Virus record (IMG/VR): IMGVR_UViG_3300048798_000040
Coordinates: 1-25,590 of that record
Reading direction: 5' to 3' (one strand)
DNA from: a virus
DNA: 25,590 nt
Part shown: positions 566 to 24,845 of the stretch, piece by piece
How positions within the stretch are numbered: position 1 is the stretch's first letter
Layout: each line of letters starts with the position of its first letter
Program-made: the position numbers and the translations under genes
Notes under the pieces: model-generated
Database searches by the model: none
What the model was told of the DNA's origin: nothing
The model's input: the letters and a program-made list of their open reading frames with translations, nothing else

Positions 566-594
566 TTGACATAAGCTAAAGGATATGTTACTAT
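566..594 (+). promoter_or_regulatory. Sigma70-type promoter upstream of the tRNA-like/ncRNA region
   Basis: TTGACA at 566-571 and TACTAT at 589-594 are separated by exactly 17 bp, placing a start near 601. It lies just downstream of array block 1 and would transcribe the microORF at 619, the tRNA-like gene and the structured region up to the hairpin at 1106-1141. No sequence data show activity. The match to consensus is the only evidence. Confidence 0.75.
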
Positions 595-618: not shown

Positions 619-687
619 ATGAGATGGAGAGAACGGATTGTTTGTATTGTAGCGATTTTGTTGTTCCTTGCTTGTGCAATTAAATGA
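619..687 (+). CDS. 22-residue hydrophobic microORF
   Basis: ATG at 619 is preceded by AAGGAG (606-611) at a good distance. The product has a basic N-terminus (MRWRER) and a hydrophobic run (IVCIVAILLFLACAI), so it could be a single membrane helix. The LAC triplet resembles the end of a lipobox, but only three residues follow the Cys. It sits right behind a consensus promoter and five bases before the tRNA-like gene. It may be a real membrane peptide or a chance ORF in a leader RNA. Confidence 0.4.
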   Translation: MRWRERIVCIVAILLFLACAIK

Positions 688-691
688 GTTA

Positions 692-781
692 AACCCCATC
701 GTCTAGTGGTTTAGGACAGTCTATCTTACGCTAAGCACAAAGATAGAAAGACGGGAGTTCGAATCTCACCTGGGGTTGCCA
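692..781 (+). tRNA. tRNA-like gene with an aberrant anticodon arm
   Basis: The acceptor stem AACCCCA (692-698) pairs fully with TGGGGTT (771-777), followed by G and an encoded CCA (779-781). The D arm is normal (GTCT 701-704 with GGAC 714-717). The T loop TTCGAAT (758-764) is normal, but the T stem closes only if A768 is bulged. The middle is odd: TCTATCTT (720-727) pairs with AAGATAGA (740-747), giving an 8-bp stem and a 12-nt loop instead of 5 bp and 7 nt. No standard anticodon loop can be closed, so no isotype is assigned. It could be a degenerate tRNA, a tRNA mimic, or a domain of a longer RNA with the region downstream. Confidence 0.6.
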
Positions 782-1105
782 AGTCCCCTTGTCGGGTAGC
801 AAGGGTGGAGTGCCCTGATGTAGCAGGGAATATGCAGTTAAGGTCTACATTTAACCTCGCTGCTGGCGTGGGTGGCCGACCGACCCACTCAGGTCGTTAA
901 AGAGAGTAGTATGGTGACAATTCCTAGTCGCCCTTCGTAACACTTTAAGGTAAGCTGTAGTGTGTACGAAAACAGTTTCCCACACTCCCCATATGTGTAG
1001 GGGGCTAGTCCTGAGTAGGGACTTTAAAAGGCTCTTGATGGAGGTTGAAATGAGTAACTTCATTTAAAGCTCTGCATCCCCTGTAACTTAGTTGCCCCTA
1101 AGGAG
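782..1105 (+). ncRNA. Candidate structured non-coding RNA downstream of the tRNA-like gene
   Basis: No plausible gene lies here. Instead perfect or near-perfect hairpins follow one another: 786-791/800-805, 813-817/824-828, 837-841/851-855, 868-873/883-888, 897-902/943-948 enclosing 913-918/927-932, 959-964/981-986, 987-990/1000-1003, 1007-1011/1019-1023, 1048-1053/1060-1065 and 1087-1091/1098-1102. CGACC 877-881 can also pair with GGTCG 892-896 across a stem. The region lies between a promoter and a terminator-like hairpin. I cannot match it to a named RNA class. Large phage RNAs beside tRNAs, such as GOLLD, are known, but no GOLLD match is claimed. Confidence 0.55.
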
Positions 1106-1147
1106 TAATAGCGCTGAGTACCACCATTCTTGGCGCTATTATTTTAT
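1106..1147 (+). terminator. Terminator-like hairpin closing the RNA region
   Basis: TAATAGCGC (1106-1114) pairs perfectly with GCGCTATTA (1133-1141) and is followed by TTTTAT. The 18-nt loop is long for an intrinsic terminator and begins with TGAGTA. It lies about 20 bases upstream of the next Shine-Dalgarno site, so it may instead allow read-through into the gene at 1169. Confidence 0.6.
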
Positions 1148-3517: not shown

Positions 3518-3670
3518 ATGTACGAACTCAAGCAAGCCCTTAAGGACGTTAAGGCTACACGTAGATGTAGGGAAATAGCGTATGCCATTGCTCGTACTAA
3601 CTATGTAGCAGCAGTAGAATATGCTTTAGGATATACACGAAGGCAATTGATTGAGAAAAGCCTTAATTAA
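3518..3670 (+). CDS. Hypothetical helical protein, 50 aa
   Basis: MYELKQALKDVKATRRC at the start and an Ala/Tyr-rich middle suggest a small basic helical protein, perhaps helix-turn-helix-like (YTRRQLIEKSL at the end), but no family is recognised. The ribosome site is weak (GGTGG 3510-3514). It is the last gene before an intrinsic terminator. Confidence 0.6.
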   Translation: MYELKQALKDVKATRRCREIAYAIARTNYVAAVEYALGYTRRQLIEKSLN

Positions 3671-3695
3671 GTTCTATAGGATTATCCTTTAATAC

Positions 3696-3722
3696 AGCCC
3701 CTTTTGAGGGGCTTTTATTTTG
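3696..3722 (+). terminator. Intrinsic terminator
   Basis: AGCCCC (3696-3701), loop TTTTGA, GGGGCT (3708-3713), then TTTATTTTG. This is a compact 6-bp GC-rich stem and U-tract in textbook form. It ends the transcript carrying the small genes upstream. Confidence 0.9.
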
Positions 3723-7492: not shown

Positions 7493-9178
7493 ATGTCAGC
7501 ACCATATAATCGTATTAAAGATTTAGTACCATTAAAGGAAAAAGGATTTCCTGATCTTTTGCGTCAATTGTTGTCTATGTGTACTCCACATGGTCATGAA
7601 AGACATATTGAAAAGATTATTAGAGATCAACCCTATGTAAATAATGTAATTAAAGATAAATCTTTAGGAAATATCATCATTAAGGTCGGTGAGTCTCGAT
7701 CTATTTTTTCATGTCATATGGATATTGTAGGCAATGTAACATCTAAGAATGCTAAACTTGGAGGAGTAGATGCAATTCATCTATTAACTCCTGCTGATAC
7801 AGAGGCCAATAAGACCTATAAAGGCTTTGTATATGGTGCTAAAATATATACAGATGCAGAAGGTAAGCGTTATTATACTCCATCTACATTGGGTGCTGAT
7901 GACAAGCTTGGTGTGTTTATTATGTTATCAATGATTAAAGAGAAAATTCCTGGTATTTACATATTTCATACAGGAGAAGAACCAGGGGGCAAAGGTTCCT
8001 TTTTTCTATCTACAAATCCAGTATGGAAAGATTTATTTAAAGATAAAGATAGGGCTATTGCTTTTGATAGGGCTAATTATGGGGATGTTATTGGTTGGCA
8101 ACGAGGGGGCAGATGTTGTTCCACTAAATTTGGTAAGGCATTGGCCAAAGCTCTAAATGAACATATGCCCCCAAGGCAATTATTCAAAGAGGATGTTACA
8201 GGCTCATTCACAGATACAGCTAATTATATTAAACTTGTGCCTGAATGTACTAACATATCTGTAGGATATTTCCATCAACATGGTGTAGATGAATGCTTTG
8301 ATTGGTATTGGCTTATAGACCATCTATTGCCAGCTATCCTTAAGGTGGATTATGAGAAGCTCCCAGTAGAGCGTGATCCTTCAAAGACTTACTCAAGTAA
8401 TTATAGTGGTGGGTACTATGACCACGGCCTCAATGGTGCTGAAAAGGTTGCATGGAAGGATGTAGATAAAGATACTCCCTTCTATAAAACCCCTAAATGG
8501 CACCCTGATCTTGGTTGGCCTAAAGGGGCATCTAAGGAGGCTCTATTTAAAGGCGTTGAATGGTACGTCAATCATGGATTCTTTGGGAAAGATAAAGAAG
8601 ATTTCCTTGTATCATATGTAGAGAATCTTGAGATTATTGATTTACTCAAGGATGAAGTTATTGCAAAGAAGATGCAAATTGAAAAGCTTAACCTTAAGTT
8701 AGGTATTACAAAGCCCTCTGAGAATGTGGCAGATATTGAAGTACACAAGAGGAAAGTCTTCATAGAGAGCATGGTAAAAGCTCTTGAAAATTCGACATTC
8801 TCTAGCAACGCAATGAGAATAATTAGTGATGGATATATAAAGGGTGCAACTAAATTTCTAGCAATTAATGTTGACAAGAATACATTCAAGAGTTTTACTA
8901 AGGAAAATCTATCAAAGATGAATAGATTGATATCCATGATGTCCTATTTATTGTCTTGTAGAGATAATCTTCCTGGGGAAGTATCTGCCATAGCTGTAAC
9001 AGAGGATGATATCATAGATGAACTTGTGATGAGTGCATTTGCATATATTGCAGCAAATCATAGTGAACCTGGATTTAGAGAGGAAGATTTGACCAAATCA
9101 ATTCAACATATACAGACACTATCCGATAGAGAGAAAGAACTAAAGGAATCTCAACCCAAACGAGTGACGGTGCATTAA
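7493..9178 (+). CDS. Zinc metallopeptidase of the M20/M28/M42 type, 561 aa
   Basis: Residues 1-290 carry a di-zinc exopeptidase core: H75-x-D77 (SCHMDIV), bridging Asp at L-G-A-D136-D-K, catalytic and metal Glu in T-G-E162-E163, Asp192 in AFDRANYGD, and His near 263 (GYFHQH). The closest known layouts are aminopeptidases and tripeptidases such as PepT. The remaining 270 residues are helical and have no recognised domain, making it longer than usual. Phage-borne enzymes of this class are known but their substrates are not. It may trim peptides or cut a host or phage protein. The start is ATG 7493 after AAGGG. Confidence 0.85.
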   Translation: MSAPYNRIKDLVPLKEKGFPDLLRQLLSMCTPHGHERHIEKIIRDQPYVNNVIKDKSLGNIIIKVGESRSIFSCHMDIVGNVTSKNAKLGGVDAIHLLTPADTEANKTYKGFVYGAKIYTDAEGKRYYTPSTLGADDKLGVFIMLSMIKEKIPGIYIFHTGEEPGGKGSFFLSTNPVWKDLFKDKDRAIAFDRANYGDVIGWQRGGRCCSTKFGKALAKALNEHMPPRQLFKEDVTGSFTDTANYIKLVPECTNISVGYFHQHGVDECFDWYWLIDHLLPAILKVDYEKLPVERDPSKTYSSNYSGGYYDHGLNGAEKVAWKDVDKDTPFYKTPKWHPDLGWPKGASKEALFKGVEWYVNHGFFGKDKEDFLVSYVENLEIIDLLKDEVIAKKMQIEKLNLKLGITKPSENVADIEVHKRKVFIESMVKALENSTFSSNAMRIISDGYIKGATKFLAINVDKNTFKSFTKENLSKMNRLISMMSYLLSCRDNLPGEVSAIAVTEDDIIDELVMSAFAYIAANHSEPGFREEDLTKSIQHIQTLSDREKELKESQPKRVTVH

Positions 9179-12446: not shown

Positions 12447-13047
12447 TGTAAAGAATAAATACAATTGGAATAAAGTAAAGAGCTTACTTAAAGGAGTTCC
12501 TTTTGTTATTGCCGGAGGGGCTGCTCGTCAACTGTTCCTTGATGAGAAATTTGGCAGCACTGATATTGATATCTATCCTACAAAGGATAATTTAGGTAAA
12601 CTCTTAGAGATAGCGCGTTTAAAGGCTTCAAAGAATAAGTATGGTAATGCCGATACTTTCAAATATAAAGCCTTAACAATACAAATTATCCAAATTAATA
12701 CGCCTTATAATTCCATAGAGGATATATTCAATACTTTTGATTTGCATTGTTGTTGTATGGCTACAGATGGACAATATTTGTATTTCACTGAAGAAGCAGA
12801 ACGAGATGCTACATCTAAATATATGCGCCTAACAGGAAATGAAAAAGAACCTGATATTTATAGATTAATGAAATATTGGATGGGCAAAGGATATAAAATT
12901 GATGATGAGATTATTAGAGAACTAATTTACAAAGAGATGAAAGGATTTATATTACGCCATACGGCCTATGCTAAGGATACATTTTCTTATAGTAAATCAC
13001 ACCTAAGCACTTATTTAATGGAAGAAATAAAAGCATATAAAGGATGA
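12415..13047 (+). CDS. Nucleotidyltransferase-like protein, 210 aa
   Basis: The Pol-beta-type nucleotidyltransferase head is visible: A-G34-G35-A-A-R with S-T-D50-I-D52-I-Y-P, as in the CCA-adding enzyme and poly(A) polymerase head domain. A third acidic residue is probably in FDLHCC. The rest is helical. The substrate is unknown. Phage homologues could modify tRNA ends, nucleotides or proteins. It lies in the replication operon directly before the polymerase, which it overlaps by ATGA. Confidence 0.75.
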   Translation: MKLLVKDLQVSVKNKYNWNKVKSLLKGVPFVIAGGAARQLFLDEKFGSTDIDIYPTKDNLGKLLEIARLKASKNKYGNADTFKYKALTIQIIQINTPYNSIEDIFNTFDLHCCCMATDGQYLYFTEEAERDATSKYMRLTGNEKEPDIYRLMKYWMGKGYKIDDEIIRELIYKEMKGFILRHTAYAKDTFSYSKSHLSTYLMEEIKAYKG

Positions 13048-21939: not shown

Positions 21940-22176
21940 ATGACAAAGACTTTCCGGTTACGCCAACATGCTTATACAAAAGTACCAATTTATTACATAG
22001 AGATGGAATACGTAAATGATGTACCAGATAAGATGGGCGTAATCGGAGGGTGCAGTATTGTGGCTATTGTGTATGATGCCGTAAGAGCAAATCAAATTTT
22101 AGACTTTTTAAAACAACAAGAAGAAGAAAAAGAGAATAATGTCATTCAAGTCGAGCCTAGGTCCATTCAAGAATAA
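21940..22176 (+). CDS. Hypothetical protein, 78 aa
   Basis: AAAGGAT precedes ATG 21940. It has a beta-rich body (MTKTFRLRQHAYTKVPIYY start) and a Glu/Gln-rich charged end. It overlaps the reductase start by 38 bases. No family is recognised. Confidence 0.65.
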   Translation: MTKTFRLRQHAYTKVPIYYIEMEYVNDVPDKMGVIGGCSIVAIVYDAVRANQILDFLKQQEEEKENNVIQVEPRSIQE

Positions 22177-23798
22177 GTTTGCTGAAGATATATTTAGACA
22201 AAAATATAGGCACGATGGATGCCTTACATGGGGAGAATTATGTAATACATTAGTAGATGAAGTTTGTGGTGATTATCTTTCTAATGGAGATAAAGAACAA
22301 TTAAAACACTTCATGCAAGAAATGAAGTTTATCCCAGGAGGGAGATATCTGTATTATGCGGGTCGTAGTAAGCGATATTACAATAATTGTTTTAGAGGTA
22401 CAGAGCAATTCCTGAGCTATAAAGGACTAATTAATTTTAAAGATAACGTAGGGGAATATGTATCTATTCTAAGTCCCGTTTCAAATACGTGGGAGATCGC
22501 TAAGGTTGAGTATTTTGGGAAACAAGTAACAAATAAAATTACTTTCCAAAATATTAGAGGAAAATCCAATAAGAGTTGGGTTGTCTATGCAACGGCAAAT
22601 CATATTTGGCCACTAGTATCAGGAGAGACTACAGATCATCTTATCGTAGGGGATCAAGTTAAAGCAGTATCAACGGCCTTGACAGATTATGGATCACAAG
22701 AAGGTGTCACGCATGGTATGGTGTATGCTGATGGTAATGTACATGAATTAAAAGATTCATTTGCACATCAATTACGATTATGCGGACTAAAAAGGATACA
22801 TAAATCTCATTTTGAAGAAGATTATGTGATTACTTATCCTACATTTGCAAACGGTGACCCTATAGTTTATATTAAATCAAAATATAATCTAAAAGAGTTG
22901 CCTAGAGAAAGTGATCCTATTGAGTATATTATTGGTTTCATTAGGGGTTGGATTGCTCTAGATGGACATAATGGTTTAACTAGACAGATTCATTCTATAC
23001 ATAAGGAAGCCATTGAATTCTTTATTAAGTACGCCCCCTATTGTGGATTTGTTGTAAGTGGAAATATTAAATATACAGACGCGCCTTCAAATTTTGGAGA
23101 TAGGAAACCTCTCTATTGGGTGAATTTTAGTTCACAGTTCCCTGGTTTTAAGGTAGTATCTATTGAAAAGCAGGAGGAAGAAGATGTCTATTGTTTAGTA
23201 GAGCCTAAGCATCATCAGTTTTATTTAGCAAATGGAATTGCCACTTCGAATTGTTATCTTCTTAAGTGCCTTGAAGATTCACGTGAGGATTGGGCAGACC
23301 TTAGTTGGAAAGCAGAACGATGTTTGACAGTGGGCGGCGGCATTGGGTCTGATTATAGTATCTATCGCGCTCGCGGAAGTTATCTGCACGGCACTGGTGG
23401 AACTGCATCTGGCCCAATTTCAAAAATGCGTATGGTCAATGAGATTGGTAGAGAGGTAATTCAAGGGGGTTCTCGAAGATCAGCAATCTACGCCAGTCTT
23501 AATTATAAGCATCAAGATATACAAGAATTTCTTCATGCAAAAGATTGGGCTAAATTAAAGATTGCTGGTACAGATAAGACTTATGCTGATGTAAGAAAAG
23601 AGGACTTTAATTTTCCTTGTCCTTTGGATATGACTAATATTTCCGTGAATTATGATACTTCATGGATCATGAACTATTGGACTAAAGGGGAGCTTGGAGA
23701 AATATTCATGGCTAATTGTAGACAGGCCATGATGGGCGGCGAGCCAGGGTTTAGTTTTAATTTCTTTGAAAAGGAAAAAGAAACATTACGTAATGCCT
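22139..23798 (+). CDS. nrdJ: Ribonucleotide reductase large subunit, class II-like, exon 1 with intein
   Basis: This encodes the first part of the enzyme that makes deoxyribonucleotides. Residues 1-83 are the N-extein (LGPFKNKFAEDIFRQKY), 84-371 an intein, and the C-extein starts at C372. The C-extein carries G-G-G-I-G-S-D, a Gly-rich region and Q-G-G-S-R-R-S-A, as in adenosylcobalamin-type enzymes. No NrdB-like partner gene is seen, which favours class II. The coding stops at 23800 unless the group I intron is removed; splicing joins GCCT to GTACT and restores A-C-T-E-V. Spliced and intein-free, the enzyme would be about 557 residues. The ribosome site is weak. Confidence 0.88.
22388..23251 (+). 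other. Intein in the reductase gene, 288 residues
   Basis: It begins at Cys84 (CFRGTEQFLS, block A), has T-A-N-H (block B) near residue 154, and ends E-P-K-H-H-Q-F-Y-L-A-N-G-I-A-T-S-N (blocks F and G) before Cys372 of the extein. The usual penultimate His is Ser, as in some phage inteins. A LAGLIDADG-like motif (GFIRGWIALDG, about 266-276) keeps the second Asp but has Ala and Leu where I-D-A is usual. It is larger than a mini-intein and smaller than most homing inteins, so the endonuclease may be decaying. It interrupts the protein just before a conserved Cys. Confidence 0.9.
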
Positions 23799-23967
23799 AG
23801 AATGTATGGGCATTTAAAACCTTCTCTGATTGACTTGGAAAGCTGAACATACAGCGACAGGGCGCAAGTTTAAATACAGCGTGAGAGACTAAGCGAGAGG
23901 GACACTTAATTGTGTATGCGATAGTCCAGACTACGATAGGAACTATGTTTGTTACTTATTGTGGTAG
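23799..23967 (+). ncRNA. Group I self-splicing intron in nrdJ, 169 nt, no ORF
   Basis: Exon AATGCCT (23792-23798) pairs with the guide GGGCATT (23808-23814), leaving the standard U-G pair at the 5' splice site. P7 is GACTA (23887-23891) with TAGTC (23922-23926), inside typical R (GAGAGACTA) and S (ATAGTCC) elements. P8 is ACAC/GTGT (23902-23905/23912-23915). The intron ends at G23967, the usual omega-G. Removing it restores reading frame and the conserved A-C-T-E-V. It is short and carries no homing endonuclease. Confidence 0.92.
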
Positions 23968-24845
23968 GTACTGAAGTAACGTCAGAAGATGATTCTGATG
24001 TATGTAATTTAGGGAGCCTTAATTTTGCTAGAATAACATCATTATCTGAATTGGCTGATGTAGTTGATCTTGCTACTAAATTTTTGTTATGTGGTACTTT
24101 AGTTGCAGAAATGCCATATGCTAAGGTTTATGAAACTAGGGAAAAGAATAGACGCCTTGGCCTAGGTATTATGGGTGTTCATGAGTTTAATCTACAGAGA
24201 GGGGATCAATATGAAGTCACTAAGGAATTGCATAGATGGCTTAGTGTATATGAGAGCGCATCTCGAAGTACTGCTAGTAGTTTCAGTAATAAACTTGCTG
24301 TATCTAATCCTGTTGCTTGTAGGGCTGTTGCTCCTACTGGCTCGATTGGTATTCTTGCGTCCACTACAACGGGCATTGAACCTGTGTATGCGGTGGCCAT
24401 TAAGAGACGCTATCTCAAAGGTTCTACATGGAAATACCAATACGTGGTGGATGAAATTGCAAAGGAATTTATCGAACGCTACGGACTTAATCCTGAAGCA
24501 TTAGAATGCTCTGTTGATTTGGCTAAGGATTACCAAAAGCGCATTTCATTTCAGGCCAAAGTACAAGACTTTGTGGATATGGCCATTAGTTCAACCATTA
24601 ATTTACCAGCATGGGGAACTGAATGGAATAATGAAGATCGTGTACAGGAATTTGCTAATACTTTGGCGAAATACGCCCATAGATTGAGGGGCTTTACTGT
24701 ATATCCCGATGGTAGTAGGGGGGGACAGCCTCTTGTCTCAGTTCCTTATAAAGAAGCATTAGATAAACTTGGAGTAGAACTTGAAGAAAATACTGAGCAT
24801 TTTGATAGTTGTGATATTAATGGAACTGGCTATTGTGGCATGTAG
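23968..24845 (+). CDS. nrdJ: Ribonucleotide reductase large subunit, exon 2
   Basis: It continues exon 1 in frame after intron removal: T-E-V-T-S-E-D-D-S-D-V-C-N-L-G-S-L-N, holding the Cys of the active-site radical region, then G-L-G-I-M-G-V-H, A-P-T-G-S-I-G and S-S-T-I-N-L-P. The C-terminus ends C-x3-N-G-T-G-Y-C-G-M, a Cys pair that probably passes electrons from thioredoxin. An ATG at 23949 inside the intron opens the same frame but should not be used. Confidence 0.9.

Follow-up and report, generated by a model that had tools for sequence, protein, structure and literature searches.

The phage analysed here, known from environmental DNA, appears to make a non-coding RNA of roughly 540 bases, modelled as one large folded domain preceded by a remodelled tRNA. 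We put the probability at about 0.45 that the phage uses the unit spanning ~601–1147 to produce a dedicated non-coding RNA acting in trans, an RNA of the general GOLLD/ROOL kind that belongs to no known family. The analysed stretch, here called the window, is the whole 25,590-base virus record IMGVR_UViG_3300048798_000040, and its main genes all lie on the + strand. The DNA polymerase, primase and helicase of the window share 23–42% identity with those of HMO-2011-type phages (e.g., Pelagibacter phage HTVC033P). Single-protein searches of IMG/VR with the helicase and the polymerase returned no close relative, and none emerged when most of the window was compared with 50,697 phages by megablast. 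Promoter, tRNA-like part, non-coding structured domain and terminator-like hairpin follow one another in this order on the same strand (Table 1), and with the short ORF that they enclose, the region 566–1147 has the appearance of one transcription unit.

Table 1. Features of the proposed transcription unit, in window coordinates.
Feature	Position	Strand	Basis
Sigma-70-type promoter, TTGACA-17-TACTAT with TG before the −10 element	566–594	+	10/12 matches
Predicted 22-codon ORF MRWRERIVCIVAILLFLACAIK, hydrophobic, AAGGAG ribosome-binding site before the ATG	619–687	+	Sequence and translation
tRNA-like cloverleaf derived from tRNA-Glu	692–781	+	Rfam, ARAGORN, 25-nt identity
Candidate structured RNA domain, ~320 nt	787–1103	+	Predicted fold of one sequence
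Possible H-type pseudoknot	868–896	+	Hairpin 868–873/883–888; loop CGACC (877–881) faces GGTCG (892–896), perfect pairing
Terminator-like hairpin, 15 bp (1104–1118/1129–1143), AT-rich tail TTATTTTAT	1104–1147	+	Fold and pair probability

The consensus-type promoter and the terminator-like hairpin that a first-pass annotation of this DNA had placed on either side of the structured region were both confirmed. The promoter, 100 bases upstream of that region, is notable because only five sites of at least 10/12 quality, this one included, occur on the + strand of the whole 25.6-kb window; transcription would be expected to start near 601. The short ORF ends 4 nt upstream of the tRNA-like part. At the other end of the unit, the hairpin is stable (−19.1 kcal/mol, z −5.4, pair probability 0.98), but its U run is interrupted and its loop is long, which is why a simple terminator scanner omits it. 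The first gene of the downstream operon (1169–1498, 109 aa) starts 22 nt past this terminator, and the next + strand promoter of at least 10/12 quality does not appear before position 12926. A role in cis for the operon is therefore natural, and the main rival explanation, which we consider somewhat unlikely, holds that the promoter at 566 drives the operon from 1169 while a structured leader sets read-through of the hairpin at 1104–1143, whether by attenuation, in the manner of a riboswitch or through put-like antitermination. Both the location of the hairpin directly before the first gene and the short leader ORF agree with such a leader. However, the region is very long for a leader and includes a whole cloverleaf with CCA, no riboswitch family was matched, and none of the eight loci with relatives of the 109-aa gene in other phage contigs contains the RNA, such a leader being absent wherever the upstream sequence is available.

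The 109-aa gene has a characteristic neighbour. Several ORFs of the window (within 1–500, 1495–2014 and 2016–2640) begin MNAGLLRAGLDSFGSGSRSW... and continue as (Ser-Gly/Arg/Trp)n dipeptide repeats encoded by GGTCTN hexamers. In 8/8 related contigs (L090–L097) an (S-x)n repeat ORF of this type comes after the 109-aa gene, written there in other codons (GGTCNN, GGAGCN). Judged by sequence, the gene and the repeat ORF form a conserved two-gene cassette in diverse phages.

In the tRNA-like part, the 7-bp acceptor stem (AACCCCA/TGGGGTT) pairs perfectly, G73 is present, the CCA is encoded, the D-arm is normal and the T-loop has 7 nt (TTCGAAT). The T-stem contains one bulged A (768), and the place of the anticodon arm is taken by an 8-bp stem (720–727/740–747) with a 12-nt loop. 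Rfam scored the cloverleaf at 23.2 bits, under the gathering score of 29, and ARAGORN reported nothing by default and a 90-nt cloverleaf at a relaxed score. The first 25 nt of the cloverleaf, its 5′ part, recur exactly in 18 genome contigs spanning many phyla; 17 of them could be typed, each as tRNA-Glu, and the cloverleaf is therefore a remodelled tRNA-Glu. It resembles its parent in acceptor stem, D-arm and T-loop, with 25 nt identical in those 17 contigs, and differs in the replaced anticodon arm and the bulged T-stem, so that it cannot decode as drawn. Given the sub-threshold score and the 12-nt loop where a 7-nt anticodon loop is needed, the reading as a decoding tRNA was rejected. The degenerate anticodon and T-arms would also fit a decayed tRNA gene followed by non-functional spacer, in which the hairpins are leftovers, for instance of a lost mobile element; the genome does contain repeats and a probable intein, and no homologue of the region was found anywhere searched. 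We judge such decay unlikely, given that the acceptor stem is perfect, that folding of the region is strand-specific and strongly better than shuffled, and that a strong promoter and a terminator frame it.

The region 782–1147 had been described in the first-pass annotation as a run of about ten perfect hairpins, more GC-rich and more structured than the sequence around it, and the main points of that description are borne out and exceed chance. The + strand folds with a minimum free energy of −131.7 kcal/mol and a z of −3.57, none of 100 shuffles being as stable, whereas the reverse complement reaches z −1.44. Background windows of the same size, 46 in number, averaged z −0.8 (sd 1.2), and z < −4 was reached in just one of them, across the break in the ribonucleotide reductase gene. 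The GC content is 0.44–0.53, against 0.33–0.40 in the flanking genes. The excess of hairpins held, but their number came out lower: seven non-overlapping perfect Watson-Crick hairpins (stem of at least 5, loop of 3–10), with the terminator hairpin counted apart, compared with 2.2 ± 1.3 expected (p = 0.002, 1000 shuffles). There is no long frame on the + strand of the region, and a 70-aa minus-strand ORF (851–1063) runs opposite to every gene of the window.

The hexamer TGAGTA, previously proposed as a binding site used several times, does recur at 1012, 1051 and 1115, but just the copy at 1012 forms an exact apical loop. Because some hexamer occurs three times in 46% of dinucleotide shuffles, we dropped this recurrence as an argument; over the whole + strand of the window TGAGTA occurs 8 times. 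The wider proposal of one non-coding RNA joined to the tRNA-like part loses its TGAGTA component and otherwise fits the promoter, the terminator, the strand-specific folding and the lack of a coding frame.

The predicted fold is a single closed domain whose ends are joined by long-range helices (787–791/1099–1103, 794–800/1091–1097 and 823–828/1079–1084, with pair probabilities of 0.52, 0.92 and 0.96, respectively), and the 15-bp terminator-like stem follows directly. Pair probabilities in the domain span 0.52–1.0. An inner multibranch loop, closed by 902–907/1031–1036, is predicted to carry four hairpins (913–932, 934–970, 974–1006 and 1007–1023). Short local hairpins (786–805, 813–828 and 1087–1102) compete with the long-range helices, and one sequence cannot decide between them. 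The pseudoknot suggested earlier is possible as a pairing, but the predicted fold pairs 893–896 with 864–867 instead. On this single-sequence model, it is plausible that 782–1147 is a structured RNA. The same region also folds better than shuffled as single-stranded DNA (z −3.35), and partial tRNA 3′ ends lie between genes in related contigs, which would suit an origin of replication, a packaging site or a tRNA-gene-based attachment site. We regard such a DNA element as highly improbable, since the RNA folding is strand-specific, no integrase was found among the proteins scanned, and the 3′ 25 nt of the cloverleaf, taken as an attachment site, occurred in 0/398 genomes of one phylum with up to two mismatches.

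Searches for relatives of the RNA were uniformly negative. The Rfam search that had been suggested for this region gave no match at the gathering score and, at permissive settings (E up to 10), only the sub-threshold tRNA, with GOLLD, ROOL and tmRNA among the models; tmRNA, group I intron and riboswitch candidates were rejected for lack of a model match. Blastn identified no homologue in 50,697 phages, even at E 10, or in 72,556 plasmids, and the region had no match in 398 genomes of one phylum. Three exact-motif scans across the 2.9 million viral contigs of IMG/VR gave 0, 12 and 2 matches with no similarity past the search word; those inspected lie in or adjoining unrelated coding sequence, as chance matches would. 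The RNA was likewise absent from 80 distant loci taken from a helicase alignment and from the whole records of 49 relatives of the helicase or the 109-aa gene. A single-sequence covariance model of 902–1036 found itself (E 3.8e-47), with the next hit at E 9.2 in 0.95 Mb, and gave no match below E 0.4 in 48 whole records. Records closest to that of the window may be missing from most of these searches, which could conceal a close relative. The putative RNA is an orphan described from one sequence, and it matches no known family.

To our knowledge, few large structured RNAs have been described in phages, and two of them form RNA cages. GOLLD and ROOL, both cage-forming and of unknown function, are frequently located near tRNAs in phages, with a tRNA sometimes inside GOLLD (PMC12286853). 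The RNA proposed here resembles GOLLD in being phage-encoded, large, structured and beside or joined to tRNA sequence, the tRNA-Glu-like part standing directly before the domain. It differs in that many GOLLD members exceed 800 nt and share a universally conserved 3′ region, and membership was rejected because the covariance model found no match, neither at the gathering score nor with permissive filters up to E 10. With ROOL it shares phage origin, structure and the frequent proximity of tRNA genes; there was again no covariance-model match, and sequence and structure are distinct. Phages can also carry tmRNA, which in one-piece or permuted form joins a tRNA-like part to a long structured part. 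Here, in contrast, the structured part comes after a complete cloverleaf that includes the D-arm, and neither the tmRNA nor the permuted-tmRNA model matched, although the same model does detect an element in a related contig (L121). The put antitermination RNA of phage HK022, like the one proposed here, is structured and directly follows an early phage promoter, but, compared by description, it has ~65 nt and two hairpins against ~540 nt with a cloverleaf.

We favour an RNA acting in trans because of the + strand folding score, the hairpin excess, the closing helices, the promoter with a terminal hairpin and the lack of a + strand frame, and also because of the tRNA-Glu body with its encoded CCA and perfectly paired acceptor stem, the parallel layout in another contig (L113) and the tRNA proximity of GOLLD and ROOL. 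The succession of promoter, short ORF, CCA-bearing cloverleaf, closed domain and terminator suggests a precursor cut by host tRNA enzymes. Transcription would start at the strong promoter 566–594 and end, at least partly, at the terminal hairpin. Host tRNA-processing enzymes would then excise the cloverleaf, with RNase P cutting at ~691/692 and 3′ processing at the CCA (781). This would release an RNA of ~360 nt with both ends sealed by the long-range helices and its 3′ end guarded by the terminator stem. The closed multibranched RNA could accumulate and act during infection as a stable structural RNA or an RNA–protein particle, as GOLLD and ROOL, themselves associated with tRNAs in phages, are suspected to do. 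Transcription, processing, stability and action in trans are what we infer for the unit. This interpretation is weakened by the lack of a homologue, since a sequence without relatives might be of recent origin, in decay or a product of chance. It is weakened further because the L113 RNA is unrelated in sequence and many intergenic regions of related phages are structured.

The parallel layout came from a whole-record tRNA search among relatives. One distant relative, L113, comes from a 15.9-kb contig whose helicase is of the HMO-2011 type. There a canonical tRNA-Trp(CCA), at 1286–1359, is followed at once by ~380 nt without a credible gene (to ~1740), folding with z −4.52. As in the window, tRNA and structured stretch lie upstream of the replication genes. 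The segment 1286–1740 had no Rfam match, and nothing similar was found in phages beyond the tRNA. Its domain was rejected as a homologue after a negative alignment, the longest shared word being 9 nt, and the comparison is best read as one of layout, not homology. With a tRNA followed by ~380 nt of non-coding structured sequence, the layout therefore recurs. The parallel could reflect a recurring design, or phage tRNA neighbourhoods could simply be structured. The RNA of the window would be one more large phage RNA headed by a tRNA and unrelated to those known; taken with the matching layout in L113, it would point to tRNA plus large structured RNA as a recurring phage design, which makes the tRNA testable as a processing site, decoy or scaffold. 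We think it doubtful, as a bolder extension, that the RNA represents a new class of phage structural RNA, with a tRNA-like head and a closed multibranch domain of ~320 nt. In such a class the remodelled tRNA-Glu would serve not in decoding but as a processing signal, protein hook or tRNA decoy, and other phages with related replication genes, L113 among them, would carry unrelated domains in the same layout.

The ribonucleotide reductase of the window (22139–24845) has two interruptions, neither with an Rfam intron match. The first is an intein-like insertion inside ORF 22139–23800, running from CFRGTEQFL to HHQFYLANGIATSN-C, a probable intein. The second, the gap between this ORF and that at 23949–24845, has strongly folding surroundings (z −4.6) and is probably a small intron.

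Related contigs yielded observations of their own. One (L010) has 693 bases of little coding content just before its primase (8429–9121), with z −6.75 on one strand and the direct repeat TTAACACGTGTTAAG. The contig L121 (IMGVR_UViG_3300028829_001691), reached by a helicase-motif scan, lacks a domain like that of the window. It carries a 76-nt element (1116–1191) to which the tmRNA model aligns at both ends (70.9 bits, E 2.8e-27); only 12 nt stand where the model has about 310, a G3-U70-type acceptor pair and the CCA are retained, and a tRNA-Tyr follows directly. This predicted mini-tmRNA, consisting of the tRNA-like domain only, was not seen in 48 other HMO-2011-type records searched and could be a SmpB/AlaRS decoy or a tag-less rescue RNA. 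In L095, which also has the 109-aa/(S-x)n cassette, ARAGORN identified a 98-nt tRNA (3607–3704) with anticodon TTA, which reads the UAA stop, a possible suppressor tRNA. Finally, L041 (7910–7950) and L030 (3770–3810) both contain TTGGCTCCGGCGGT(T/A)GGGATCGAACC(A/T)ACGACCAATTGATTAACAG, which resembles the 3′ end of a tRNA, anticodon loop included, in antisense orientation and is therefore a likely attP core.
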